DNA of 64,000 bases from Oscillatoria sp. FACHB-1406. GTDB taxonomy: Bacteria; Cyanobacteriota; Cyanobacteriia; Cyanobacteriales; Spirulinaceae. This document shows, in pieces, positions 49,869 through 64,000 of this stretch. The stretch lies in the NCBI RefSeq assembly GCF_014698145.1, contig NZ_JACJSM010000003.1:62001-126000 (forward strand), in the 5' to 3' direction. Within the stretch, counting starts at the first letter, position 1, and every line of letters begins with the position of its first letter. The notes below the pieces were generated by a model, which worked only from the letters and a program-made list of their open reading frames with translations, was not told the origin of the DNA and ran no database searches. The position numbers and the translations under genes are program-made.

Positions 49869-50001
49869 CGCCGCAGCGGACTTCCTCAAGCTGTAAAAAA
49901 CGGGATAAAGGGGTAAAGGGGGCGAGAAGAAAAAAATTTCGTCCCCAGTAACGAATAACCCGCGATCGATCGTCAACAATTCATCACTAAGTAAGTTAAA
50001 A

Positions 50002-51213
50002 ATGAGTCATCAACCTCCGGCAGGAGCCAGAGATTTACTACCGCTTGAAGTCGTACAAAAACGCTGGATTGCCGATCGCTTGCAACAAGTTTTTCATCGC
50101 TGGGGCTATCGGCGTATCGTCACTTCAACGTTAGAATCGATGGAAACGCTGATGGCGGGAGGGGCAATTCAACGTTCGACGGTGCTGCAACTCGAAGATA
50201 GTTCGGAAGGGACGTTGGGCTTGCGTCCGGAATTGACAGCTTCTATCGCGCGGGCGGCGGTAACGCGCATGGCGGATGAAGGCTTTCCGCAGCGACTTTA
50301 TTACAACGCGAATGTGTTTCGGCGGCAACCCGAAGCGCGCGGGCAACAGATCGAGTTTTATCAGTCTGGGGTGGAACTGCTATTCGCGGGGGGCGTGCTA
50401 GCGGATGCAGAAATCTTGCTGTTGCTGGCTGAATGCTTGCAAAATTTGGGCTTGCAGGATTGGCATTTGATCTTAGGGGAAGCGGAGTTAACGCGATCGC
50501 TCTTGGGGACTTTTCCGATCGCGGTACAAGGTAAAATCCGCTATTGTTTGGCCAATCTCGATCGCATTGCCCTCGAGAAACTGCCCCTATCGGCAGAACT
50601 CCGCGATCGCGCCCTGATGCTATTTGACTTGCGCGGCGAACCGATGGCAGTCCTGCAAAAAGTTGCCAGTCTCGGACTCGATCCCGCCGGACAAGAAATC
50701 GTCAGCAAGCTCAAATCCGCGATCGACTTACTACAAAATGGCAGCGCCGTACCCATTTCAGTAACGCTCGACTTAAGCTTAATTCAAACCCTCGACTATT
50801 ACACCGGCATCGTTTTTGAGGTGATTAACACCGAAAATCGGCGAATTCTCGGCAACGGCGGCCGCTACGATCGCTTATTAGGACTCTACAATCCCCGAGG
50901 CGAAAGTTCTCCTGGGATTGGTTTCGCCCTCAACCTCGAAGACTTGCACGCCTGCTTACTCTCATCGCCCGAACTCCCCCAACAACCGCCGCGCATCGAT
51001 TGGCTGGTAATACCCGAAGTTCCTCAAGCCGCCACCGCAGCCTTCGCTTACGCCCAAAAGCTTCGTCGAGACTCCGAGCGTTTGGTACGGGTGGAACTCG
51101 ACTTAGGCGGGCGAGAACCCGAAGCAATTCGCAGCTACGCACGCGCCTGCCAAATCGGTTGTTTGGCGTGGGTGAAAGGAGACGGAACGCCCGTTATTGA
51201 AGCCCTCAACTAG
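50002..51213 (+). CDS. hisZ: ATP phosphoribosyltransferase regulatory subunit
   Basis: A 403-residue class II aminoacyl-tRNA synthetase-like protein that forms a complex with short HisG for the first step of histidine synthesis. It shows PPAGARDLLPLEV, then VLQLEDSSEGTLGLRPELTA (motif 2 like), QIEFYQSGVELL, and TGIVFEVINTENRRILGNGGRYDRLLG. The anticodon-binding domain of HisRS is replaced by a short C-terminal region, typical of HisZ rather than HisS. Confidence 0.9.
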   Translation: MSHQPPAGARDLLPLEVVQKRWIADRLQQVFHRWGYRRIVTSTLESMETLMAGGAIQRSTVLQLEDSSEGTLGLRPELTASIARAAVTRMADEGFPQRLYYNANVFRRQPEARGQQIEFYQSGVELLFAGGVLADAEILLLLAECLQNLGLQDWHLILGEAELTRSLLGTFPIAVQGKIRYCLANLDRIALEKLPLSAELRDRALMLFDLRGEPMAVLQKVASLGLDPAGQEIVSKLKSAIDLLQNGSAVPISVTLDLSLIQTLDYYTGIVFEVINTENRRILGNGGRYDRLLGLYNPRGESSPGIGFALNLEDLHACLLSSPELPQQPPRIDWLVIPEVPQAATAAFAYAQKLRRDSERLVRVELDLGGREPEAIRSYARACQIGCLAWVKGDGTPVIEALN

Positions 51214-51240
51214 CGCGGACATATAGAATCAAAAGTAGGG

Positions 51241-51348
51241 TGTGTTAGCGAAGCGTAACGCACCATCTCACCCCAAATTAACCCGAACTGACGTTGTGTT
51301 AGCGAAGCGTAACGCACCATCTCATCCAAAATTGAGCCGAGTTGACGA
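51241..51348. repeat. Two tandem 54-bp repeats (TGTGTTAGCGAAGCG type)
   Basis: Two nearly identical 54-bp units start at 51241 and 51295, each beginning TGTGTTAGCGAAGCGTAACG and continuing CACCATCTCA. The same motif occurs in reverse in front of cas10. It belongs to a common dispersed repeat of cyanobacteria with a small palindrome GTTACGCTTCGC. Confidence 0.85.
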
Positions 51349-51470
51349 AAATAACCTTAACTTGAAGAGGGCGGGTTTTGACTGCTGAATTCACCTCATA
51401 GTAAGGGTTTTAGCTAAACCTGCCCCTACAAATCCGATCGCACTTTTTTTACACCCTCCTACTTATCGCA

Positions 51471-51600
51471 ATTTATCATTCACCATTCATAATTCACCAT
51501 TCACCCTTCACAATTCATCATTCATCATTCACAATTCACCCTTCACAATTCACTATTCATCATTCACAATTCACTATTCATAATTCATCACTCATCATTC
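51471..51600. repeat. Low-complexity (CATTCA)-like tract
   Basis: About 130 bp of imperfect CACAATTCA, CATCATTCA and TCACCATTCA units between hisZ and the WYL gene. There is no spacer structure and no gene; the tract reaches the stop codon of the WYL gene. Confidence 0.8.
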
Positions 51601-52764
51601 ATAATTCTCCTGATAGCGTCGCAACAAAGCCCGCGCCGACTCGCAGTGCTGCTCGATTAATTCCGGTGGCGAAATAACTTGTACGTTTTCCATGTAACGT
51701 TGCAGCCAATTGCCGAACTCTTTGATAGAACGTTGCGGCAGCGCGATCGCATAATCCAAATATTCCAACTGACCCTCCTTATTCTTCGGGCCGCGTCGCA
51801 ATTGTTGGCGGGGATGGCGCAATTCTCCCTCAGAAATAAACTCACTCGCTGGCGGAAAAAAACGCACTTTAATCTCAATCAAAGGCAGCTTTCCCTGTAG
51901 CTCTAACTCCTGTTCTTCTACTTTGCCAAAATCCAAACCCCACCCATTTTCTAACAGCTTGTGTGCGCGATCGAGACTTTGTTTTTGGGCTTCGATGCCG
52001 CGTCCGGCTTGCGTCAGCACCTCGCAGCGGTCTTGGTAGCGCACGATTTTTCCGGTAAATATCTTTCCATTGCTGCAATTTTCTAACAATAAATACCAAC
52101 TGGTGTTGTAAAAAAATAATTGCAACGGCCACACCGATTGCGGCCCTAAATGTTTATTACTGTGGGGGCTGCTGTGGCGAAACAATTCCACCGCTTGACC
52201 TTGAATAATTGCGGTTTCGAGCGTATCGATGCAGTGAAATAAAGTTTTTCGATAGGCTTTTTGTTCCATCATTTCGACGGGATCGGTGCGATCGACAGCC
52301 CGATTGAGATTTTGTCGAACTGGATAGAAAAAATCGCCCTCATTGCCAAATTCAAAACCGCGCAAGCGCCGTTCTAAACGTTGATAAATTCGTCGAACTT
52401 GCGGATCGGCTTGATATTTAGCTAGGGATTCGAGGGCGTTGAACGCTACCTTAAATTCAGCTTTTGTCATCGCCCCCGTACCGAGATAGTAGCCCCAACG
52501 GTACATCCGGCGATCGAGAATTCCCCAATCGCGCAGCATTTCTAAATCTTTTCGCAGCGTCGGGGTAGCGGGATAATCGGAAGGCCAATTGAGATGCAAA
52601 GATGTCGCAACGACTCGCATCTGTTCGGCGAGAAGTTCTAAGGCATTGTGGTGCTGGGGGTTGTCGCCCCGGGACGCGAGAGGATCGATGCTACCGATAC
52701 CGGGATATTGAATTAAAGTAGCGATTAGCACCATCACGCGATCGCTCGTTTTCGGTTTGGACAT
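51595..52764 (-). CDS. WYL-domain transcription regulator of the CRISPR locus
   Basis: A 389-residue regulator with an N-terminal helix-turn-helix-like region (about 1-110) and a WYL ligand-sensing domain (about 190-275: WPLQLFFYNTSWYLLLENCSN). A C-terminal dimer region ends at 389. In cyanobacteria a WYL protein next to the CRISPR array (Sll7009 in Synechocystis) represses crRNA production; this gene has the same place and size, so it is a likely regulator of the locus. It is divergent from the Csx18-like gene. Confidence 0.85.
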   Translation of the reverse strand: MSKPKTSDRVMVLIATLIQYPGIGSIDPLASRGDNPQHHNALELLAEQMRVVATSLHLNWPSDYPATPTLRKDLEMLRDWGILDRRMYRWGYYLGTGAMTKAEFKVAFNALESLAKYQADPQVRRIYQRLERRLRGFEFGNEGDFFYPVRQNLNRAVDRTDPVEMMEQKAYRKTLFHCIDTLETAIIQGQAVELFRHSSPHSNKHLGPQSVWPLQLFFYNTSWYLLLENCSNGKIFTGKIVRYQDRCEVLTQAGRGIEAQKQSLDRAHKLLENGWGLDFGKVEEQELELQGKLPLIEIKVRFFPPASEFISEGELRHPRQQLRRGPKNKEGQLEYLDYAIALPQRSIKEFGNWLQRYMENVQVISPPELIEQHCESARALLRRYQENYE

Positions 52765-53016
52765 GGGCGCGGGGGGAATTCGTAGTTCGTAATTCGTAAT
52801 TACGCCTAATGTGAATTAGAAGCCAGCAAGATAGATATTACTGTTCTTTCTCCCCTCTCCCACCGATTGGGAGAGGGGCTGGGGGTGAGGGAAACCAAGT
52901 CATGAGTAGGGTGAGTCTTGCCGTTTCTGGCTCCCAACTCAAGGAAAAACGCTAAAAAATCGGCAATGCCCACCAAATCTCTCATCGCGTCCCTTTTCCC
53001 CCTCAACTACCATTAT

Positions 53017-53147
53017 AAAAAAGACAATATTTTTAAATTTCATTAAAAATTGCATAAAACCTCTTTGAGTAAGGCTTGTAGCATAGTTCAAAAATAAACT
53101 GAAAATATTGCCTTTTTCTAGCCAACCTCCCTTCAGCAGGCTACAGT
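53017..53147 (+). promoter_or_regulatory. Inverted-repeat promoter element A, upstream of csx18
   Basis: Arms AAAAAAGACAATATTTTT (53017-53034) and GAAAATATTGCCTTTTTC (53101-53118) enclose about 66 bp, and TACAGT at 53142-53147 is a good -10 box for the following gene. The whole block aligns with element B before cas10, including an inner stretch AAAACCTCTTTGAGTAAGG. It is a shared regulatory region or a miniature mobile element that carries a promoter. Confidence 0.6.
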
Positions 53148-53184
53148 AAAGCACAGAAGATTCCCACCCAGGAGAATAACTGCG

Positions 53185-53463
53185 ATGTACTTATCCAATC
53201 GTGCGGCTTTCGTGCGTAGCATCGTCGTTTCCGGCATCAACGGCGCAATTACCCTAATTTTACTCCTAATTGCGCCGCTAGGCTTAGCCTTAGTCATCAC
53301 TAACACCGTTCTCATCGTCCTCTCCACCTTCGTTGCTTGTACCCTCGGCGACCGCGTTGTCGCTTGGTTGTTGCGCTCTCAAAGCATCAACACCTTGGGC
53401 GGATGGACGCAACAGCAAGGGATACAGCATTTTGAAGAGAGAGAAGGGCGAGATCGGCGTTAA
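53185..53463 (+). CDS. csx18: Csx18-like small membrane protein
   Basis: A 92-residue protein with two hydrophobic helices (about 12-35 and 36-60: GINGAITLILLLIAPLGLAL and VLIVLSTFVACTLGDRVVAW) and a charged C-terminal tail. It lies next to a CRISPR array in a type III-B locus, as do the small proteins named Csx18. That name is from memory of the family and carries moderate certainty. It may anchor the effector or respond to cyclic oligoadenylate. ATG 53185 follows AGGAG at 9 bases. Confidence 0.6.
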   Translation: MYLSNRAAFVRSIVVSGINGAITLILLLIAPLGLALVITNTVLIVLSTFVACTLGDRVVAWLLRSQSINTLGGWTQQQGIQHFEEREGRDRR

Positions 53464-53585
53464 AGCTGGAAACTCGATTTTGTATCATCGGTTTGCGAGG
53501 GATCCGGAAAATCGCTGAAACCCGCATTCTTTCGTTCTATCCCTCGATACCGCTCTGAGACTGGGATTTCGCTATTTTTTAAGAC

Positions 53586-53612
53586 TTGCTGAGGGGCTTG
53601 GGGAGGTACAAT
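53586..53612 (+). promoter_or_regulatory. Candidate CRISPR array promoter
   Basis: TTGCTG at 53586-53591 and TACAAT at 53607-53612, with a 15-bp spacer, would start a transcript at about 53619, which includes the leader hairpin and reads into the first repeat at 53675. Confidence 0.45.
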
Positions 53613-53615
53613 AAA

Positions 53616-53673
53616 GCTATCCTTCGCAAACGCCCTCTGGAATTCACTCCAGGAGCAGGTTTGAGAGGGTAGC
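53616..53673 (+). promoter_or_regulatory. Hairpin in the CRISPR leader
   Basis: GCTATCC at 53616-53622 pairs with GGGTAGC at 53667-53673, and the inner parts CGCAAAC/GTTTGAG and CTGGA/TCCAG add further stems, giving one long imperfect hairpin that ends one base before the first repeat. Confidence 0.5.
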
Positions 53674-53674
53674 C

Positions 53675-53933
53675 TTCTCCACTCGTTGGAGAAACCTATT
53701 GAATGGAAACTTTATTGAAAAAGGATTCTGCAATTTGATTCAACAATTCTCCACTCGTTGGAGAAACCTATTGAATGGAAACAAAGAACGAGGACAACCT
53801 CTCCCGGCAAAGGGATGCGAGCGATTCTCCACTCGCTGGAGAAACCTATTGAATGGAAACTTGAAGTTTACCTTCCTTCAAATATTCTTTTATGTTGTTC
53901 TCCACTCGCTGGAGAAACCTATTGAATGGAAAC
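53675..53933 (+). CRISPR. CRISPR array, four repeats and three spacers
   Basis: Four 36-bp repeats at 53675-53710, 53747-53782, 53825-53860 and 53898-53933. Spacers are 36, 42 and 37 bp. Each repeat starts with a 7-bp palindrome TTCTCCA/TGGAGAA around a 5-base loop (CTCGT or CTCGC) and ends AATGGAAAC, the likely 5' handle. Repeats 1-2 have T at position 12 and repeats 3-4 have C. The leader side is the Csx18 side. At 53934-53946 ATTAAATGGAAAC repeats the last 13 bases of a repeat with one change, a remnant of a further repeat. Spacer targets cannot be told here. Confidence 0.95.
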
Positions 53934-54011
53934 ATTAAATGGAAACATTTCATTAATCGTTAAACTAGCGTAAACTTCAAGTAAACTTATCCCTTTTTGG
54001 AGGTCAAAGCC

Positions 54012-54251
54012 ATGACAGGAATTCGGCTAGTGGAAGGCGACCCGGGCGACACTTGGGACGATTTAAGCTGGAGCGATTTCAGTGACGAAGAAAAAGACGC
54101 TTGGAGAGTTCTCGGTTGGAATCGGGATAGTTGGGAAGAAGAAGATGATGCACCCGACTCTAATGATAAATACTGGGAAGAACTAACGCCCGAAGAGCAG
54201 GATGCAGCATCAGAACTCGGTTATACCCAGGAAAGCTGGGACGAGGGATAA
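54012..54251 (+). CDS. Small acidic protein with two tandem motif units
   Basis: A 79-residue, strongly acidic protein between the array and cas1. Two similar units are visible: WSDFSDEEKDAWRVLGWNRDSWEE and, with a gap, YWEELTPEEQDAASELGYTQESWDE, with common pattern EE-x-D-A-x-x-x-L-G-(W/Y)-x-x-x-S-W. There is no Cys, membrane segment or signal peptide. The ATG at 54012 has GGAGG nine bases upstream. Similar short LGYT...SW motifs occur in other cyanobacterial and algal proteins; function is unknown. Charge suggests a nucleic-acid-mimic or an inhibitor, which is speculation. Confidence 0.65.
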   Translation: MTGIRLVEGDPGDTWDDLSWSDFSDEEKDAWRVLGWNRDSWEEEDDAPDSNDKYWEELTPEEQDAASELGYTQESWDEG

Positions 54252-54544
54252 CTCCCCGATTGATAGTCAGAAACCCAGGGGCTTCTAACTCGAGCGAAGA
54301 AGAGCTTTCCACCCGCCCAAGAAACAAGATGGAATAGCAACGCTCGAATTCGCCTAACCTTCACTGAATAGAGCGGGTTAACTTCGTAAAATTCCAACAA
54401 CCTCTCCCCGACTCCAAAGTTTGTTGACTAAAAGCAACCCGCTCTTCCTTCTTTCTCCCCACTCCCAGCCCAATATTTTCTGTCCGTAGCAATGGACAGA
54501 ATTTCTGCAACGCTTCAACTCAGCCAATCTTTAAACCTCCAACA
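54252..54544. other. Gap before cas1, no gene
   Basis: 293 bp with CT-rich stretches and the start region of cas1. No further repeat-spacer unit and no open frame of note was found. Confidence 0.5.
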
Positions 54545-55537
54545 ATGAAATCCCTCTACATCTCCCAACAGGGGTGTTACATTGCGCTGCAACAAGAACT
54601 TCTCCTCGTCAAACAACAAAAAGAAATCCTCGCGCAAATCCAACTCCCCCACCTCGAACAAGTCCTCATTTTCGGCAAATCGCAAATGACAACCCAAGCC
54701 ATCCGCGCTTGTTTGTGGCGAGACATTCCCATCGTTTACCTCTCGCGCCAAGGCTACTGCTACGGGCGCATCGTCGCCATTAATCGCGGATTTCGGCAAC
54801 TCGCCCGCTACCAACAAGAACTCTCTCTCGGCGAACGTTTGAGCGTCGCCCGCGCCATCGTCGCCGGAAAACTCAGCAACAGTCGCACCTTACTCCAGCG
54901 TTACGCCCGTCAGCCCAACCGCGAAAGCCTCCGGCTAACCGTACAAAGTCTCGATTACCTCATTGACAAAGCCCGTCGCGCCGACAGTATCGAACAACTC
55001 CTCGGTTACGAAGGCGCAGGAGCGGGAAGTTACTTTTCTGCCTTCAGCGAATGCTTGCAAGGAAACGACTTTGAATTCGTCGCCCGCACTCGCCGCCCGC
55101 CCGGAAACCCCGTCAACGCCCTTCTAAGCTTCGGCTACCAAGTCCTGTGGAATCACCTCCTCGCCCTCATTGAAATCCAAGGACTCGATCCTTACTGGGC
55201 GTGTCTCCACCACAGCAGCGAACGTCACGCCGCCCTCGCCAGCGACTTACTCGAAGAATTCCGCGCCCCCTTCGTCGATTCCCTCGTGCTGTGGCTGATT
55301 AACAAGCGCATCATCAACGCCAGTCAAGACTTCGAGCATCGAGACGGCGGTTGTTTCCTCAACAATAGCGGGCGCAAAAAATACCTCAAATCCTTCGTCG
55401 GACGAATGGAAGAAACGGTTCAAAACCGCGACGGCGAACCGCAACCGCGCTGGGATTTGCTGCTGCAACAAGTCAAAGCTTTCAAACAATTCGTTTATCA
55501 ACCCAGTTTGGGTTACTGCCCTTACTCGATTCGCTGA
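54545..55537 (+). CDS. cas1: CRISPR-associated endonuclease Cas1
   Basis: A 330-residue integrase that, with Cas2, inserts new spacers. The metal-binding residues fit Glu156 (LLGYEGAGAGSYF), His222 (ACLHHSS), and Asp234/Glu237 (SDLLEEFRAPFVD). Length is normal and no reverse transcriptase is fused. Its stop codon TGA lies in a sequence copied again before cas2. Confidence 0.96.
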   Translation: MKSLYISQQGCYIALQQELLLVKQQKEILAQIQLPHLEQVLIFGKSQMTTQAIRACLWRDIPIVYLSRQGYCYGRIVAINRGFRQLARYQQELSLGERLSVARAIVAGKLSNSRTLLQRYARQPNRESLRLTVQSLDYLIDKARRADSIEQLLGYEGAGAGSYFSAFSECLQGNDFEFVARTRRPPGNPVNALLSFGYQVLWNHLLALIEIQGLDPYWACLHHSSERHAALASDLLEEFRAPFVDSLVLWLINKRIINASQDFEHRDGGCFLNNSGRKKYLKSFVGRMEETVQNRDGEPQPRWDLLLQQVKAFKQFVYQPSLGYCPYSIR

Positions 55538-55657
55538 AATGCTGTTTTATCGGATTGCTCGCGATATAGCGCTACTTGAAATGTGAATATACGTTTCTAA
55601 ATGCACCAAAGTCTTAGCTGGTGGGCGCTGCCCACCCTACCCGATGTCCCAACTGAA
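55538..55657. mobile_element. Small repeat inserted at the cas1-cas2 junction
   Basis: The bases around the cas1 stop and the following AATGCTGTTTTAT (55535-55568) recur at 55654-55687 with six changes, where they form the cas2 start. Between the copies lies an element beginning GATATAGCGCTACTT and containing the palindrome GGTGGGCGCTGCCCACC. The first copy still reads as a short cas2-like start MLFYRIARDIA, then stops. The best explanation is insertion of a miniature element with a target duplication of about 33 bp, after which the second copy kept cas2 intact. Confidence 0.7.
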
Positions 55658-55936
55658 ATGCTGTTTTATTTAATCGCTTACGATATTCCCTGCGACAAAC
55701 GGCGCAAAAAAATCGCCGATTTGCTGGAAGGGTACGGAACCCGCGTGCAATATTCCGTTTTTGAGTGCATCCTCGAGCGCGCCCAATACCAAGAACTACA
55801 AAAACGCCTGAAAAAACGCTATAAGTCTGCCGAAGATAGCCTGCGTTTTTATCCGCTCTCTCAACATACCCTCAGCCAAGTTGAAGTTTGGGGAGAACCG
55901 CCGCTGACTCGAGATTCTAGTTCGACGGTTGTTTGA
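55658..55936 (+). CDS. cas2: CRISPR-associated endonuclease Cas2
   Basis: A 92-residue Cas2 starting MLFYLIAYDIPCDKRRKKI with Asp8 in the active-site position, followed by VQYSVFECIL. It forms the dimer at the centre of the Cas1-Cas2 integrase. The start at 55658 is the family-like one; an in-frame ATG at 55601 lies in the inserted repeat. The C-terminal 15 residues are unstructured. Confidence 0.93.
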   Translation: MLFYLIAYDIPCDKRRKKIADLLEGYGTRVQYSVFECILERAQYQELQKRLKKRYKSAEDSLRFYPLSQHTLSQVEVWGEPPLTRDSSSTVV

Positions 55937-56118
55937 GGTAGAGAGGCTGCATACAACGTCCCAACCGGCGATTATTCTTCGCGATGTAGCGCTGATATGG
56001 CAATCAATAAACCTCTTTCGTAGGGTGCGTTATACCAATTCTCATTGATTTTGCACGATTCCCGAAGAGGGCAGCCACATTGTTCATTCGTGTCAACTTA
56101 AGGTGAAACACTTAGCCC

Positions 56119-56168
56119 GCCAGGAACTCAAGTTCCTGGCTAATAGCTGAAACCCGTTGAAACGGGTT
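56119..56168. repeat. Palindromic repeat pair behind cas2
   Basis: GCCAGGAACT-CA-AGTTCCTGGC at 56119-56140 and AACCCGTT-GA-AACGGGTT at 56151-56168 are two perfect palindromes separated by 10 bases. They look like one dispersed element of Oscillatoria-type genomes. They lie in a 960-bp gene-free stretch between cas2 and cas10 (55937-56896) filled with repeats. Confidence 0.7.
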
Positions 56169-56204
56169 AGATACATCTGAATTTCCCAGTCCTAACCCTA
56201 CTTT

Positions 56205-56598
56205 CACTCTTTCGTAGGGTGCGTTAGGCGCAAGCTAAACCTCTGAAAAAAGGAAAAGATATTTTAGTGCGCCGTAACGCACAGTCTTAGTGCTAACATC
56301 CCCTACTTTCACTTAAAAAGCGATTGAAAAAGGAAAAGATTTTTCAGTGCGCCATAACGTACCCAGATGGTGCGTTACGCTTCGCTAACACACCCTACGT
56401 TCGCTCTTTCGTAGGGTGCGTTAGGCGCAAGCTAAACCTCTGAAAAAAGGAAAAGATATTTTATTGCGCCGTAACGCACCGTCTTAGTGCTAACATCTCC
56501 TACTTTCACTTGAAAGGCGATTGGAAAAGGAAAAGATTTTTCGACGCGCCATAACATACCAAGATGGTGCGTTACGCTTCGCTAACACACCCTACTTT
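56205..56598. repeat. Tandem duplication of a 197-bp repeat block
   Basis: Two copies with period 197 bp begin at about 56205 and 56402. Each has CTTTCGTAGGGTGCGTTAGG, a GAAAAAAGGAAAAGATATTT stretch and ends with GCGTTACGCTTCGCTAACAC. Copies differ by scattered bases. It is the same family as the 54-bp units at 51241. No gene is encoded. Confidence 0.8.
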
Positions 56599-56638
56599 CA
56601 CGTTAAGGGCGATCGCGGAAAGATTGCAAATATTCAAG

Positions 56639-56780
56639 AAAAAGACAATATTTGAATCAATCCGTAAACAATCTTAAAAACCTTTTCTGGTAGGAATTTC
56701 AGCGAATCTAAATAAATTCTAAAAATATTGTCTTTTAGTGGATTTTCTATAGAGCCTTGAGCTAAGCTGCATACTACAGA
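56639..56780 (+). promoter_or_regulatory. Inverted-repeat promoter element B, upstream of cas10
   Basis: Arms AAAAAGACAATATTT (56639-56653) and AAAAATATTGTCTTTT (56721-56736) enclose about 67 bp containing AAAACCTTTTCTGG. TACAGA at 56775-56780 stands in the position of the TACAGT -10 box of element A. The two elements align over more than 100 bp, although B has 15 extra bases before the -10. It should drive the cmr genes. Confidence 0.55.
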
Positions 56781-57127
56781 TTGAGGAGAGCGGGCTACTG
56801 GAGCGATCGAGCTTCGGCAATGCCTGGAAAGTTTTTGCGGCGACAAACTTGCAAACATCCCTTAGCTTAACCCCTGCATGAAACCAGCGCAACTAATTAA
56901 GGAAATTTACGGAAGTCCGGCTCGATGCTCAATGGCAATGTTATTGGACGGCTGTTCCGTTCGGCGACCCAGAAGCAGATTTAAATCGTTCTCCGCGCAG
57001 CAAGAAGAAGTGCTATAAAACTTGGAAAGATAGACAAAATCAATTTACGACTCCTCGAGAAGAACTATTAGATCCAAAAGAATCAGAGTTTCTTGAAGCG
57101 ACTTATACAGAAAGCTGGCGAGAATAT

Positions 57128-58837
57128 TTGAAAGCGCAGAAAAAAACCGTCGGTTTTGAGAAACGTCCGAATCTCAATGTCGGTTCGTGGTGGGCGCAAT
57201 ATTTCGATTTAACTCGACTCAGCCTCACTGCCGTTAAAAATGCCCGCAGTTGGCAATTACCCACCGCCTTTGGGCCGCGTTCTACAATTTCCGGTATCGG
57301 CCCGGTCGTTCATGCCAATAACGGTGGAAAAGATTGGGTAACAGAAGGTGAAACCCGCCAGCTTTGGCAAAAAGATATGGGATTGTTTGATGGCATTGAA
57401 GAACTGAATGCAACCGAAGTTCTCAAGCGCGGACTGCATAAAGTTTTACCCAACCTTTTAAAAAGTTCTCTCCCTCGTCAAGAATATTATTATCCCGACC
57501 TTTCAGCAGGAGTTGCTGGCTGGTTGCGCGAGACGATTCAAAAGGAAGGAACATCTTCCCCAGCGGTTGAAAAATATAGAGAAATTTGTCGCGAACTTTG
57601 CCACGAATTTAAATGGGCTGAAGCAACGAACCAGCAAGCTTGGGGAATTCCTTGGGTTGAAAAAAGCAAGCTTCAACTGCCGCATCCTCGCCTGTTAAAT
57701 GCGGGTTGGGCGATTGAAGACTTTCGGGCTGGCAACGATAACCTTAGTTTTGAGGAATTTAAGCGCGAAAAACAGAAAGAACTAGAAAAAGTCCGAGACG
57801 CGATCGCGAGTTATTTCCCACCCGGCAGCAATCCAACCGATTGGTATGTTACTGCCGCAGGCGATGGCGACAGCATGGGCGAATGGCTCAAAGGGACTAA
57901 ATTGAAGCCTTATCAAGATTATTTTCCCGAAGCATTACCGGACAAAATTGAGGAACTTCCAGACGTTTTAAAACAGCCTTTTTCAGAGTTTACTAAAGTT
58001 AGCAAACGCATGGGGCCGGCAACTCACAGCGCCCTCAGTCGCGCCCTCCTTGACTTTTCCAACCAACTCCTTCCCTACCTCACCGAAGAACGTTACGCCG
58101 GACGATTAATTTACGGTGGCGGCGATGACGTTCTCGCTTATACCAACATTTGGGAATGGGACAATTGGTTGTGGGATGTGCGCTCCTGTTTCCAAGGGAA
58201 AGTAGACCCAAAAGGTGAGTTTGAAGGCGGCGATTCTAGGGGGGATTATTGGCAGTGGAAAAATACTGATTCTCCAACTCAAAACCCTGCTTTTAAACGT
58301 CCGTTATTTACGATGGGGCGCAATGCAACTATCAGTTTCGGAATTGTCATCGCCCATCAATCCGTCCCGCTCGCGATCGCGCTCGAAAACCTTTGGAAAG
58401 GGGAAAAAGAAGCAAAAGAGCATGAAAATGAGCAAAAACTAACAAAAGATGCAGTTCAAGTGCGAGTGATTTACGGTAACGGTAATATCCTCAAGGCAAC
58501 GGCAAAATTTGCTACCTTCGAGCAATGGCGTAAACTTCTCGAACTCGAAGTCGATAGCGCTTTGTTTGAAAACGCCGCGCAACTTTGGGAACAACATCCT
58601 GTACCCGTAGAAGCTGCAATAGAGCCTTGGGTAAAAGCTTTTATTTCCCGTCGAGAAACCCTGCAAGGTGACGAACAATTGAAAAATAATTTTTCCGATA
58701 CTTTGACCAACTTTTTAACGAGCTTATGGCAAAATTCTGTCCCAAATCGTCGCGACGCAGAAATCAAAAGCTGGCTCAAACTCGCCGCCTTTATCATCCG
58801 CAGTCGCAAAATTGAAATTCGCGATTTTCACAATTAA
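57128..58837 (+). CDS. cas10: Cas10/Cmr2, N-terminally truncated
   Basis: Large subunit of a type III-B complex, kept only from its middle part on. The frame is open from 56897 (after a stop at 56894-56896), beginning LRKFTEVRLDAQWQCYW; the first possible start in frame is TTG at 57128. Known Cmr2 proteins have about 900-1000 residues with HD and Palm-1 regions first; here about 570-650 residues remain. The rest looks healthy: RPNLNVGSWWAQYFDLTRL, TAFGPRSTISGIGP, DGDSMGEWLKG and the cyclase motif GGDD (Palm-2, residues 331-334 from 57128). No frame change in the part kept. A different frame from ATG 56878 reads MKPAQLIKEIYGSP and stops. Confidence 0.85.
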   Translation: MKAQKKTVGFEKRPNLNVGSWWAQYFDLTRLSLTAVKNARSWQLPTAFGPRSTISGIGPVVHANNGGKDWVTEGETRQLWQKDMGLFDGIEELNATEVLKRGLHKVLPNLLKSSLPRQEYYYPDLSAGVAGWLRETIQKEGTSSPAVEKYREICRELCHEFKWAEATNQQAWGIPWVEKSKLQLPHPRLLNAGWAIEDFRAGNDNLSFEEFKREKQKELEKVRDAIASYFPPGSNPTDWYVTAAGDGDSMGEWLKGTKLKPYQDYFPEALPDKIEELPDVLKQPFSEFTKVSKRMGPATHSALSRALLDFSNQLLPYLTEERYAGRLIYGGGDDVLAYTNIWEWDNWLWDVRSCFQGKVDPKGEFEGGDSRGDYWQWKNTDSPTQNPAFKRPLFTMGRNATISFGIVIAHQSVPLAIALENLWKGEKEAKEHENEQKLTKDAVQVRVIYGNGNILKATAKFATFEQWRKLLELEVDSALFENAAQLWEQHPVPVEAAIEPWVKAFISRRETLQGDEQLKNNFSDTLTNFLTSLWQNSVPNRRDAEIKSWLKLAAFIIRSRKIEIRDFHN

Positions 58838-60004
<1,167 letters not shown>

Positions 60005-60037
60005 TAATTTGTCATTCATCATTTAGTAACAAATTTC

Positions 60038-61348
60038 ATGGCTAGTATTCTTATTACCTTCGTCGGGAAGCAAGACCCCTACTCCGATAATTCTGAAAAA
60101 GAAGGCTCAATCGTCACCTTAGTAAGATACTTGATGGGTCAGGGTATTTCTTTTAAAAAAGTAATATTACTCTGCACGCAAGGAACGCAAGAACGAGCGG
60201 AAGCGACAGAGGACTGGTTAGAGACGGACGTAAAAATCGCGCGATCGCAAATCGAGATTATTCCAGTCTGTTCAGAACTATCAGACGATCCGGTGAATTT
60301 ATTGCTCGCCTCGAGAGAAGCTTACCGCGCGATCGAAACAGTGCAACAAGATTGGGTAGAAGGCGATTGTTTAGAATTCAATGCTTCTTCCGGAACTCCC
60401 GTCATGAAATCTTCTTGGAGTATTCTTGAGGCAGCAGGAAAAACGCCGCCAAACAGCAAAGTTTGGCAAGTTCGCGATCCTCGAGAAATCAAGCCCGGTC
60501 AAGAGGCTGTTTTTCTCAATGATGTCTCCGTTCTTAAAGATGAATTTGATATTCAAGTCATCAAGCGTCAAATCGCAAACTACAACTACAGCGGCGCTTT
60601 CGTAGACTTAAAACTGAGTAATCTTCACAGTTCAGAAATAGAAGCATTACTGAATTACGGACAGTACCGTTTAGCTTTTGACTTCGATCGCGCTTTCAAT
60701 AGCATTCAAAACTTACCCCTACCTTTTACTGAGACAGTCTTACCCCAACTAGCCGCCCTCAGAAGAAAAGACAAAAGAGCCTTACTCGAGGAAATTTATA
60801 GCAAGATACAGATTAAAGATAAAAAGGAAGAGTATTCCGACTTACTCGTACTGCTCTTTTCCTTTCAAGAAACCTTACTGCGTTTGCTCGTTGTACAAAA
60901 AACATTACCGAATGAGGTTCAAGCGAGTTGGGAACGGAATGAAGAAAAAGTCAAAAATCAAATTTCTACTTTTGATGGTGGAAAACTTAATTTATTTTTA
61001 GAAAATTACATTTTAAAAAATGGTAAAAAACTTCAAACTCTCGATGACAGAGGTCAACATTTTAGTCGGATTTCTTTAAAGGCAATCCTAGATTACCAAC
61101 CCGATTCGCGAGATTCAGAACTGTTACCTCTTATCGAAAGCTTAGAGAACTATTGCGGACAGCGCAATGATTATATCCATGACTTAAAAGGAATTTCTAA
61201 AATTGAAAAAAAAGGAGAAATCCTAAATGCCTTGAAAAAGATACTACAAAAAATCGGTAGCTCAACCTCCGATAATCCCTTCGACCGGCTTAATAAAGAA
61301 CTCTCATCTCTTTTAGAAGTAGAACAAAAACGAGGTCAAAATAAATGA
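60038..61348 (+). CDS. Csm6-like CARF-HEPN ribonuclease
   Basis: A 436-residue accessory effector. The N-terminal CARF domain starts ILITFVGKQDPY and has NASSGTPVM (115-123), the ligand-contact motif of Csm6-type CARF domains. The C-terminal helical half holds RNDYIH (Arg376 to His381), the RX4H active site of HEPN ribonucleases. In known systems cyclic oligoadenylate made by Cas10 binds CARF and switches on RNA cutting. Csm6 is usual in type III-A, Csx1 in III-B; here it sits between cmr3 and cmr4. The stop overlaps the cmr4 start as ATGA. Confidence 0.88.
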   Translation: MASILITFVGKQDPYSDNSEKEGSIVTLVRYLMGQGISFKKVILLCTQGTQERAEATEDWLETDVKIARSQIEIIPVCSELSDDPVNLLLASREAYRAIETVQQDWVEGDCLEFNASSGTPVMKSSWSILEAAGKTPPNSKVWQVRDPREIKPGQEAVFLNDVSVLKDEFDIQVIKRQIANYNYSGAFVDLKLSNLHSSEIEALLNYGQYRLAFDFDRAFNSIQNLPLPFTETVLPQLAALRRKDKRALLEEIYSKIQIKDKKEEYSDLLVLLFSFQETLLRLLVVQKTLPNEVQASWERNEEKVKNQISTFDGGKLNLFLENYILKNGKKLQTLDDRGQHFSRISLKAILDYQPDSRDSELLPLIESLENYCGQRNDYIHDLKGISKIEKKGEILNALKKILQKIGSSTSDNPFDRLNKELSSLLEVEQKRGQNK

Positions 61349-62163
61349 ATATTAACTTAGTCTATCTCTATCTACTTTCGCCCCTGCATACCGGCGGTGC
61401 AACTCAAGAAGGAAACCTGCTCGGTATTGCTCGCGAATCTCACACCAACATCCCCTATCTTCCCTCCAGCACGATTCGCGGCAGACTGCGCGCGAGCGAA
61501 ACCGATAAGAAGAAGCAGTACAAATTATTTGGCACCGAGCTTAAATCGGGTGAAGAAAATAGCGGCGGCTCAACTGATTCCAACAAGCTCGTGCAGGGTG
61601 ACATCTGGATTGGCGATGGCTCGATTTTATGGCTGCCCGTCCCTTCTCTCAGTCATGGCGTGGTTTGGATTAGTTCTCCGATGTTACTACAACGTTGGGC
61701 GAGACTCAATGCTTTACCTAGCAAGATTCCGACTGAATATAGCTGTAGTTTCAAGCAAAGCAATACGAGCGTTTACTTAAAAGATGCCGTGCTGAAAGCT
61801 AATGATTTGAAAGAGTGGAAGAATTGGCAAGAATTTGTCCCTAAATCGGCAGAAACTAATAATATTACTCGTCTTCTTGTCATTCCCGATCGCCACTGCG
61901 AAACGCTGATTCAAATGGGATTGTGGCGACAAGTCAAAGTCAAACTCGACGAACACAAAAATGTGAGTGGCGGTTTTCGGTACGAAGAAGCGATTCCTCC
62001 CGATACTCTCGTCTATTTTCCTTGGGGAATTACTTCTCAGGCGAATGGCTCTCGCCAACAGTCCGAGACCGATTTTAAAGCGTTGCTCGGCAACAACACA
62101 ATCTTGCAAATCGGCGGACAAGAAAGCTTGGGACGCGGTTTCGTTCAACAGTGGTTGGGATAG
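61345..62163 (+). CDS. cmr4: Type III-B protein Cmr4 (Cas7 family), catalytic Asp missing
   Basis: A 272-residue backbone subunit of the complex. It begins YLYLLSPLHTGGATQEGN and continues PYLPSSTIRGRLR, the Cas7 signature, and ends IGGQESLGRGFVQQWLG. In P. furiosus Cmr4 the target-cutting residue is Asp26, in VVDQPIQRE; the matching stretch here reads GNLLGIARE with Leu25 in its place and no Asp before residue 50. It therefore may bind but not cut target RNA. Confidence 0.9.
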   Translation: MNINLVYLYLLSPLHTGGATQEGNLLGIARESHTNIPYLPSSTIRGRLRASETDKKKQYKLFGTELKSGEENSGGSTDSNKLVQGDIWIGDGSILWLPVPSLSHGVVWISSPMLLQRWARLNALPSKIPTEYSCSFKQSNTSVYLKDAVLKANDLKEWKNWQEFVPKSAETNNITRLLVIPDRHCETLIQMGLWRQVKVKLDEHKNVSGGFRYEEAIPPDTLVYFPWGITSQANGSRQQSETDFKALLGNNTILQIGGQESLGRGFVQQWLG

Positions 62164-62167
62164 AAGG

Positions 62168-62253
62168 CTATTTCAGTCAACAAGTCAACAAATGACACTA
62201 ACTTAAGGCTGGTGGGCGCTGCCCACCCTACGAAATATCTATTTCAGTCAACA
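62168..62253. mobile_element. Palindromic repeat with 15-bp flanking direct repeats between cmr4 and cmr5
   Basis: GGTGGGCGCTGCCCACC at 62211-62227 is flanked by CTATTTCAGTCAACA at 62168-62182 and again at 62239-62253. The direct copies look like a target-site duplication around the small element, although the left and right spacing differ. It splits cmr4 from cmr5 by 117 bp without damaging either. Confidence 0.6.
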
Positions 62254-62280
62254 GTCAACAGTTATCAGTTATTAGTCAAG

Positions 62281-62781
62281 ATGAATATTTTCGATCCGCG
62301 AACTTTAAGTGAGCCTGTTTACAAGGCTTTATCAGACTTACGCCGTCCCTACGAAGAGGCTTGGCAGAAAGCCACAAGGGAAATCGATAAAAAAATTTAC
62401 TATAACCACCTCAAGGAGCAAAAAAATCAGGCGATCGAACTTTATACCTATATTTCGACTTGGGGGCTAATGCGTTGTAAGGCTGAAGAGAAATATTTAG
62501 ACAAAAGGAAGTTAGGAGAGCCAGAAGTTACGAGAGTAGAGGATAAAGCGAAAATCGAGCAATACGGTAAAAGGGAAGTTATCCAAAAATACTTTTCCTG
62601 TTTAGAAAATTTAGCAGCGAGTTCAGATACAAAAGATCTTGCTACCGATCGCGGATTAGATGTCCTCAAAGGTCTACAAGCCGATGAATACTTAGGCTTA
62701 ATGGGTTTAGGACTCGAACTCGCTAATGAATTCAGCTTTTGGGCGAATGCCGTTTATCACGATATTAAAGGAGACCAGTAA
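62281..62781 (+). CDS. cmr5: Type III-B small subunit Cmr5
   Basis: A 166-residue helical protein of the Cmr5 (Cas11-type) family, which lines the inner side of the complex along the target. It is Lys/Glu-rich with AIELYTYISTWGLMRCKAEE and LDVLKGLQADEYLGLMGLG as distinctive parts, and ends two bases before the next start (TAATC-ATG). ATG 62281 begins MNIFDPRTL; an upstream in-frame ATG lies inside the inserted repeat. Confidence 0.82.
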   Translation: MNIFDPRTLSEPVYKALSDLRRPYEEAWQKATREIDKKIYYNHLKEQKNQAIELYTYISTWGLMRCKAEEKYLDKRKLGEPEVTRVEDKAKIEQYGKREVIQKYFSCLENLAASSDTKDLATDRGLDVLKGLQADEYLGLMGLGLELANEFSFWANAVYHDIKGDQ

Positions 62782-62783
62782 TC

Positions 62784-64000
62784 ATGAGTCCTAACCCTAT
62801 ACAGCGCCCCAATAAACCGAATTCCACTCAACGCCCCGTTCAAAAAGCGAAAAAAGTTATCGATTCTTCCAGACAAAATCGAGGGAATGGCGGGGGGCGC
62901 AATCATGGTGGAGGAGGGCAAGGGGGCGGTAATAACGGGCGAAACGAACCTTCTCCTTGGTTAGATGAAAACAACGAACCCTCTCCAACTCCAACCGCTA
63001 GTTTTGTGGAATATTTGCGTTGGATGCGCGCCCCAGACTCGGAATATAAAGATGAGACAAAAGTCCAAATTTTGCATTTAGCAACGGAGAACGCGAACTA
63101 CCGAGAACGACTCAAACAACTGGTCAAACGGACTGAAATAATCGCACAAGTTACCTTTCAAGTCAAATGTCCTTGGCGCATTCGCGTAGGCGGAACTAAA
63201 GGCCCAGAAAACATTTTACTTCCTGCTTTCGATGCTCTCGGAATGCCCTACATTCCCTCTGCAACTCTGCGGGGAGTCGCGCGAAATCAAGCCATTCGCG
63301 AACTGATGAAAAAGCAAAAATTAACTTGGGATGATGCCGATAAAAAAGTTGCTCCTTACTTCGGTTCTCTAGAAGTAGAAGAGAAAGCCAATCGCGCTGG
63401 AAAAGTCGTCTTTCTCGATGCTTACCCTGTCCCCAGCGAAAAAGGGGGGTTAGCAATGGATATGGCGAATAACATTTGGAAGTGGGAAGGAGAACGCCCC
63501 GACTATTCGCCTAATCCCAATCCTTTTTTATCGTTAAAAGAACCGACTTTTTTAATCGGTCTGCGCTTGGCAACAGGTTGCCAGGACGAGCGAGTTTTAG
63601 AGAAAGTTAAAACTTGGTTAATTGAAGGAATGCGATCGGGGATTGGCTCGCAAGTCAATACTGGCTATGGCGAACTGTTTACAGCCGGTGCGGGACACCC
63701 AACCAAAGAGTTTTTCCGCGTTGAATTTTCTTTAGAAGGGCAACTAATTCACGGATATAAAAAGTTTACTCAATGGAATTGGAACGACCGCCGCAATGAG
63801 TGGCAAATGCGAGGGATTGCCGAAGCAGAAGTCCGCCCGGTTGCCTTTAAATCGATGCTAAGGTACTGGTTCCGCGCTTTTGCTTTAGGCGTTCTTTCTT
63901 TTAAACAAGTGCAGGAATGGGAAGCCAAACTGTTTGGTGGAATTGACCCCAAACGAGAATATGGTTATTTGAAAGTGAACATTATTGATGGTAAAAAGAT
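62784..64000 (+). CDS. cmr6: Cmr6 RAMP protein continuing into a Cmr1-like domain, partial
   Basis: Open frame from ATG 62784 to the window end without a stop (405 codons seen). Residues 1-75 are a Gly/Asn-rich linker (GNGGGRNHGGGGQGGGNNGR). Residues about 110-315 form a Cas7 domain of Cmr6 type: ALGMPYIPSATLRGVARNQA and GMRSGIGSQVNTGYGEL. From about 315 a second domain begins FRVEFSLEGQLIHG, followed by EVRPVAFKSMLRYWFRAFALG and WEAKLFGG, which is the start pattern of Cmr1. The gene thus appears to be a fusion of two subunits; the end lies outside. Confidence 0.85.
   Translation, partial: MSPNPIQRPNKPNSTQRPVQKAKKVIDSSRQNRGNGGGRNHGGGGQGGGNNGRNEPSPWLDENNEPSPTPTASFVEYLRWMRAPDSEYKDETKVQILHLATENANYRERLKQLVKRTEIIAQVTFQVKCPWRIRVGGTKGPENILLPAFDALGMPYIPSATLRGVARNQAIRELMKKQKLTWDDADKKVAPYFGSLEVEEKANRAGKVVFLDAYPVPSEKGGLAMDMANNIWKWEGERPDYSPNPNPFLSLKEPTFLIGLRLATGCQDERVLEKVKTWLIEGMRSGIGSQVNTGYGELFTAGAGHPTKEFFRVEFSLEGQLIHGYKKFTQWNWNDRRNEWQMRGIAEAEVRPVAFKSMLRYWFRAFALGVLSFKQVQEWEAKLFGGIDPKREYGYLKVNIIDGKK

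Follow-up and report, generated by a model that had tools for sequence, protein, structure and literature searches.

A cmr2 gene without its 5' part, probably a recent pseudogene, in a type III-B CRISPR locus of Oscillatoria sp. FACHB-1406

Described Cas10 systems and the Oscillatoria locus

The cyclase active site of Cas10 is formed by both palms, and Palm-1 is normally needed for cyclic oligoadenylate synthesis; an N-terminal HD domain is usual in Cas10/Cmr2 but not universal. The roles of the HD and palm domains have been described (PMC7192623). In P. furiosus, Cmr2 contacts Cmr3 through D1, its first cyclase-like domain (PMC3727216). Approximately 97% of Cas10s are predicted to be active, with the cyclase domain inactivated in subtypes III-C, III-G and III-H and lost in III-I (PMC12669027), and Csf1 of type IV systems has been proposed to be an N-terminally truncated Cas10 (PMC3150331). 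Among cyanobacteria, knock-out of the cmr2 gene sll7090 in Synechocystis 6803 abolished the CRISPR3 crRNAs, which were restored by a plasmid copy (PMC3575380). Based on the plasmid and the CRISPR3 context, we equate this gene with SGL_RS01050 of plasmid pSYSA (NC_005230) of Synechocystis sp. PCC 6803.

A 64,000-nucleotide stretch of the Oscillatoria sp. FACHB-1406 genome (contig 3, positions 62001-126000; hereafter the window) was examined in the present study. The draft genome comprises 5.47 Mb in 42 contigs, with a tool-estimated completeness of 99.93%. The window carries a CRISPR-Cas region with the following genes and array around cmr2, in window coordinates:

51595..52764, minus strand, WYL-domain regulator, CRISPR-associated according to PADLOC models
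53185..53463, plus strand, csx18
53675..53933, plus strand, CRISPR array of 4 repeats and 3 spacers, of a repeat type common to 3 other arrays of the genome
54545..55537, plus strand, cas1
55658..55936, plus strand, cas2 (listed frame starts at 55601)
58862..60004, plus strand, cmr3, full length
60038..61348, plus strand, CARF-HEPN ribonuclease gene (csx1/csm6) with the motif RNDYIH
61345..62163, plus strand, cmr4
62281..62781, plus strand, cmr5 (listed frame starts at GTG 62212)
62784..64000, plus strand, cmr6-cmr1 fusion, 655 aa in all, continuing beyond the window end

The genes cmr3, csx1, cmr4, cmr5 and cmr6-cmr1 look intact. The four genome arrays of this repeat type hold 21 repeats, and the Cas6 family PF10040 has one match in the genome, on contig 10. 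Between cas2 and the cmr genes lies a 197-bp tandem duplication (56195-56588, 93%), which holds a short intergenic repeat widely dispersed in the genome. The arrangement is shared with relatives, in that csx18-cas1-cas2 and cmr2-cmr3 also occur in one region in G009, G006 and locus L034. On pSYSA, csx18, cas1 and cas2 are likewise found near cmr2, and downstream of it cmr3, cmr4 and a RAMP gene are annotated, with a short hypothetical gene at the place of the small subunit.

The cmr2 gene at the head of the operon is represented by an open frame with the following features:

56894..56896, plus strand, TAA stop bounding the open frame on its upstream side
56897..58837, plus strand, cmr2/cas10 remnant, 646 codons and a stop, with homology to full-length Cmr2 from 56921
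57128..57130, plus strand, TTG, the first in-frame start-type codon (codon 78)
57377..57379, plus strand, first in-frame ATG (codon 161)
57863..57871, plus strand, DGD of Palm-2 (residues 323-325)
58118..58129, plus strand, GGDD of Palm-2 (residues 408-411)

A sequence-only reading of the window had described a frame that opens directly after a stop codon and shows Cmr2 from its middle onward, with an uninterrupted Palm-2 holding DGD and GGDD and with no ATG or GTG ahead of TTG 57128, and all of this was borne out: the stop of the frame is at 58835-58837, no internal stop is present, and neither ATG nor GTG occurs in frame within the first 160 codons (before 57377). The only ATG, GTG or TTG codons within the first 200 are TTG 57128, ATG 57377 and TTG 57383. 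By-eye inspection found no clear Shine-Dalgarno sequence ahead of TTG 57128, and the ATG at 56878 lies in a different frame that closes after 46 codons. Codon preference favours the remnant frame in all four segments, although its lead over another frame is narrow in the last one (0.078 vs 0.06).

On sequence criteria, the remnant corresponds to the last two thirds of a type III-B Cas10/Cmr2. The PADLOC model Cas10b PDLC02052 matches it at E 2.7e-198 over model positions 292-872 of 875, the Pfam family PF22335 covers Palm-2 at 59.4 bits, and the NCBIfam model TIGR02577 scores 78.8 bits, slightly below its cut-off of 79.4. Model match, Palm-2 with DGD and GGDD, and an operon with cmr3 to cmr6 thus all point to III-B, while Palm-1, an N-terminal HD domain and a complete gene with a start codon are wanting; the dipeptide HD is absent from the frame. 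Identity to pSYSA Cmr2 is 49%, with residues 9-641 of the remnant aligned to 370-977 of a 979-aa protein that retains its front, and the first 369 residues of which have no counterpart in the remnant. In the same way, the match to the 1025-aa Cmr2 of Cyanobacterium aponinum begins at its residue 375.

Extent of the missing front

Alignment with full-length cyanobacterial Cmr2 proteins, a check proposed together with the sequence-only reading, gave an abrupt homology edge: 21 of the 22 relatives used as tblastn queries align from 56921 (L030 being a duplicate of L008), which upholds the loss of the front. The twenty-second, L016, gave an alignment extended to 56804 across stops, which we do not regard as a front remnant upstream of the junction, as a profile test gave it no support (at best -0.7 bits). 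In this six-frame search of 55940-56914 the front profile found nothing above shuffled sequences (95% point -0.4, maximum 2.3, with 190 of 200 shuffles giving any match), and in the whole window no match of note. At 56781-56801, a TTG, four codons and then TAC TGG (YW) resemble the start of intact Cmr2, with unrelated sequence after them; this likeness, found by eye and post hoc, was set aside. A search of the genome with the front of one relative indicated that the missing front is absent, the only match being the III-B paralog on contig 28.

The loss amounts to approximately 370 codons of cmr2 itself, comprising the start, the HD domain and all of Palm-1 except the last strand. In a structure model of the full-length Cmr2 of L005, used as control, the Palm-1 strands were assigned to residues 235-245, 286-288, 330-337 and 403-411, and the remnant starts at the equivalent of residue 399; the last of the four strands is therefore predicted to be still encoded. 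The earlier description of HD and Palm-1 as missing thus holds for HD and, on this model, for most of Palm-1 but not for its last strand. The control model has a mean pLDDT of 64.7, and Foldseek places it closest to Cmr2 chains of III-B complexes, with TM-scores <0.5. A fold of the short frame (mean pLDDT 57.3) was unusable as evidence of instability, Palm-2 being poor in the control as well.

The ~180 bp between the upstream paired element described below and the junction (56737-56917) have no informative match in the genome, the relatives or plasmids, and a simple two-ended deletion is for this reason not demonstrated. Matches within the genome are of 15-32 bases only, at E 0.25 or worse (13 of 13 candidates scored), those in relatives are short and weak (up to 6 candidates per genome scored), and plasmids gave none.

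Comparison of the locus among relatives, likewise proposed beforehand, returned no relative with the same short gene in 58 genomes of the class sample. Two overlapping genome sets were used: a first set of 59 genomes, 26 of which (Oscillatoria included) have a Cmr2 match, and a class sample in which 59 of 388 genomes match at E <= 1e-60, leaving 58 besides Oscillatoria itself. Cmr2 frames in matching genomes are mostly 900-1100 residues long. The survey was judged by frame length, except for short frames, which were read: in 52 of the 58 genomes the frames are >= 901 aa and the front was taken as present, while of the six with shorter frames five hold the front (G213, G149, G204, G462 and G332) and one (G237) is truncated by the end of its contig. 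The short frames were accordingly discarded as fellow short forms. A comparable N-terminal loss was thus found neither in the 58 genomes (G237 being contig-cut) nor in the 25 others of the first set, where the cmr2 of G004 is split across two contigs with its front there. The genomes returned include none from the same genus, and neither a date for the deletion nor a comparison of its ends follows from them.

The cmr2 copies of G213, G149 and G204 (loci L089, L090 and L092) resemble the remnant in being III-B homologs that are no longer one frame. They differ from it in having kept the N-terminal coding DNA, front and back being present with breaks that are frameshifts or stops, whereas the remnant has lost DNA; these split copies are either other broken genes or sequencing errors. 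Two further loci stood out during the survey. In L098 (G332), a 703-aa Cmr2 frame keeps its front and matches the remnant over residues 9-351 only, which is either the opposite shortening or a diverged back part. In G003:C1, the same cmr locus is present twice (L041 and L042), in opposite orientation, near both ends of a 55-kb contig and with equal scores, as either an inverted duplication or an assembly effect.

Origin and consequences of the truncation

We propose, with a probability of roughly 80%, that cmr2 is now a pseudogene, having recently lost its 5' part through deletion or rearrangement. A recent deletion had been put forward in the sequence-only reading, and the clean edge, the lack of any front remnant or comparable truncated copy and the conserved remainder all favour it; as a loss confined to the spacer between the upstream element and the gene, however, it fails, some 370 codons of the gene being gone. 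The remnant keeps 157 of 160 columns invariant among 20 relatives (excluding the contig-end-cut L022 and the duplicate L030), and of its three misses one falls at the junction; the other relatives miss 0 to 11. Mean distance ratios across 9 of 12 relative loci, from alignments anchored on the window and hence biased low in all genes alike, show no excess rate in the remnant (0.84, vs 0.96 for cmr3, 0.88 for cmr4, 1.03 for cmr5 and 0.79 for cmr6-1). Since 5.1% of single substitutions in the frame would create a stop, the stop-free frame limits neutral divergence to ~3% at 95%, with all substitutions weighted alike and indels ignored. Such a conserved, unbroken remnant fits a recent loss, and continued selection would also be compatible with it.

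With the start, the HD domain and all but the last strand of Palm-1 removed by the proposed event, no usable Cas10 would be made from this locus. For want of it, the locus would provide neither HD DNase nor cyclic oligoadenylate, and its Cmr complex would probably fail to load crRNA properly. The doubt that the sequence-only reading cast on a signalling role agrees with established knowledge of Cas10. The operon may still be transcribed.

Elsewhere in the genome, a second III-B locus (L037, G000:C28:1-19000) runs from cmr2 to cmr6-cmr1. Its Cmr2 is of 1079 aa with GGDD and no HD dipeptide, and shares 39-44% identity with the remnant over matching parts; the remaining pairs are 28% (cmr3), 54% (cmr4), 42% (cmr5) and 41% (cmr6-cmr1) identical. 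The contig-28 locus also has a gene that matches Csm6 weakly (17.7 bits, well below the cut-off), and a tyrosine recombinase gene lies directly upstream of the locus. Its GGDD-bearing Cmr2 may make the loss of cmr2 tolerable.

It is unlikely that translation from TTG 57128, ATG 57377 or an unconventional start still yields a short Cmr2, of Palm-2 and the C-terminal domain, with a structural role in a Cmr complex that cleaves RNA only, through Cmr4. The unbroken and conserved 646-codon frame and the intact downstream subunits also fit such a used form, and reduced Cas10s are known elsewhere (PMC3150331, PMC12669027). Csf1 and the type VII and III-I forms resemble the remnant as Cas10 derivatives without front or cyclase parts, but these are conserved lineages, whereas the remnant is a single copy with no clear start that keeps GGDD and a CARF effector gene; a short form conserved in several lineages, as expected of a functional reduced Cas10, was not seen here, and no relative examined has the same form. 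Starts at TTG 57128 or ATG 57377 would both drop invariant residues encoded upstream. D1, which we equate with the missing Palm-1, forms the interface with Cmr3 in P. furiosus, and the CARF-HEPN gene is retained, whereas in III-G and III-H loss of the cyclase is accompanied by loss of such genes (PMC12669027). The sequence-only reading had offered a shortened but still used protein as its other option; with no ATG or GTG in 160 codons, no like relative and the Cmr3-docking domain lost (PMC3727216), this finds no support.

It is improbable that the intact contig-28 Cmr2 substitutes for the lost protein, with Cmr3-6 and the CARF-HEPN nuclease of the remnant locus staying in use. Such substitution, which can coexist with the pseudogene explanation, would account for the intact neighbours and could draw on a GGDD-bearing cmr2 with cmr3, cmr4, cmr5 and cmr6-cmr1 homologs beside it, but the divergence of the Cmr2 and Cmr3 pairs makes subunit exchange doubtful, and recency is a simpler account of the intact neighbours. 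We hold a remodelled III-B system equally improbable, in which a minimal Cas10 of Palm-2 and C-terminal domain, controlled by a shared operator, would still serve and the second III-B locus would take over signalling. More improbable still is that the assembly is wrong here or that the mutation arose only in the sequenced culture: the genome is a draft of 42 contigs, yet the site is internal to a 362-kb contig, 56740-56925 is single-copy in the genome, which leaves no repeat to collapse there, and a misjoin should have left the front on another contig, where the search found none.

A paired inverted element at the CRISPR loci

The sequence-only reading had placed a promoter element at 56639-56780, between cas2 and the remnant. 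A real and specific element is present there, at 56640-56736, but a promoter role was not upheld. Sigma-70 type promoters and terminators in 52700-59000 were not above shuffles, no Rfam family reached its gathering score in 50000-64000, and RNA folding of 56636-56900 gave a z of 0.13. The element and a second copy in the window are as follows:

53018..53117, no strand, second paired element, in the interval separating csx18 from the divergent WYL gene
56640..56736, no strand, paired element upstream of the cmr operon, two fully complementary 14-nt arms with 69 nt between

The arms, AAAAAGACAATAT and ATATTGTCTTTTT, are inverted and lie 81-84 bp (~83 bp) arm to arm. The first pair pattern had 2 matches in the genome and 0 in 118 other genomes. 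Similar arms stand ahead of arrays of the same repeat type at G000:C2:68825-68915 (L111) and G000:C1:335812-335904 (L113), with the first repeat following after ~360 bp. With two of the sites already known, the pattern was widened, giving three and then four matches in the 5.47-Mb genome, at csx18, the cmr operon, the contig-2 array and the contig-1 array; a reversed-pattern control gave zero matches. Outer lengths are 94, 93, 91 and 93, where the pattern permitted 78-108. No element was found in the stretch read at the contig-20 array, and the same pair geometry was not found among 12 relative loci, two of which duplicate each other; relative L039 has a recurrent pair of different sequence, and isolated half-sites with one mismatch are present in some relatives. 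The interiors of the four elements are mostly unrelated (z 2.4 for the contig-3 copies, <= 1.8 for the other five pairs), which speaks against a transposon family and led us to reject a mobile element.

Judging from position, geometry and specificity, the four elements are a candidate operator set, with the adjacent WYL regulator as putative binder; WYL regulators of phage defence loci have been described (PMC9122601). Should the remodelling weighed above apply, the AAAAAGACAATAT pair, present ahead of csx18, of the cmr operon and of two arrays far away, would place the pieces of a scattered CRISPR system under a single regulator. Among the open PubMed Central papers listed, the titles and abstract openings contain no description of the element, and those listed on truncated Cas10 gave no report of the remnant locus.

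As a phenomenon, the broken cmr2 is ordinary, being another type III system without its large subunit whose neighbours survive. The locus would be a natural test of what cmr3-6, the CARF-HEPN nuclease and the arrays do without Cas10. The paired element found at all four sites is a more interesting by-product than the broken gene itself; if the WYL protein binds it, this would show a scattered CRISPR system switched as one unit.
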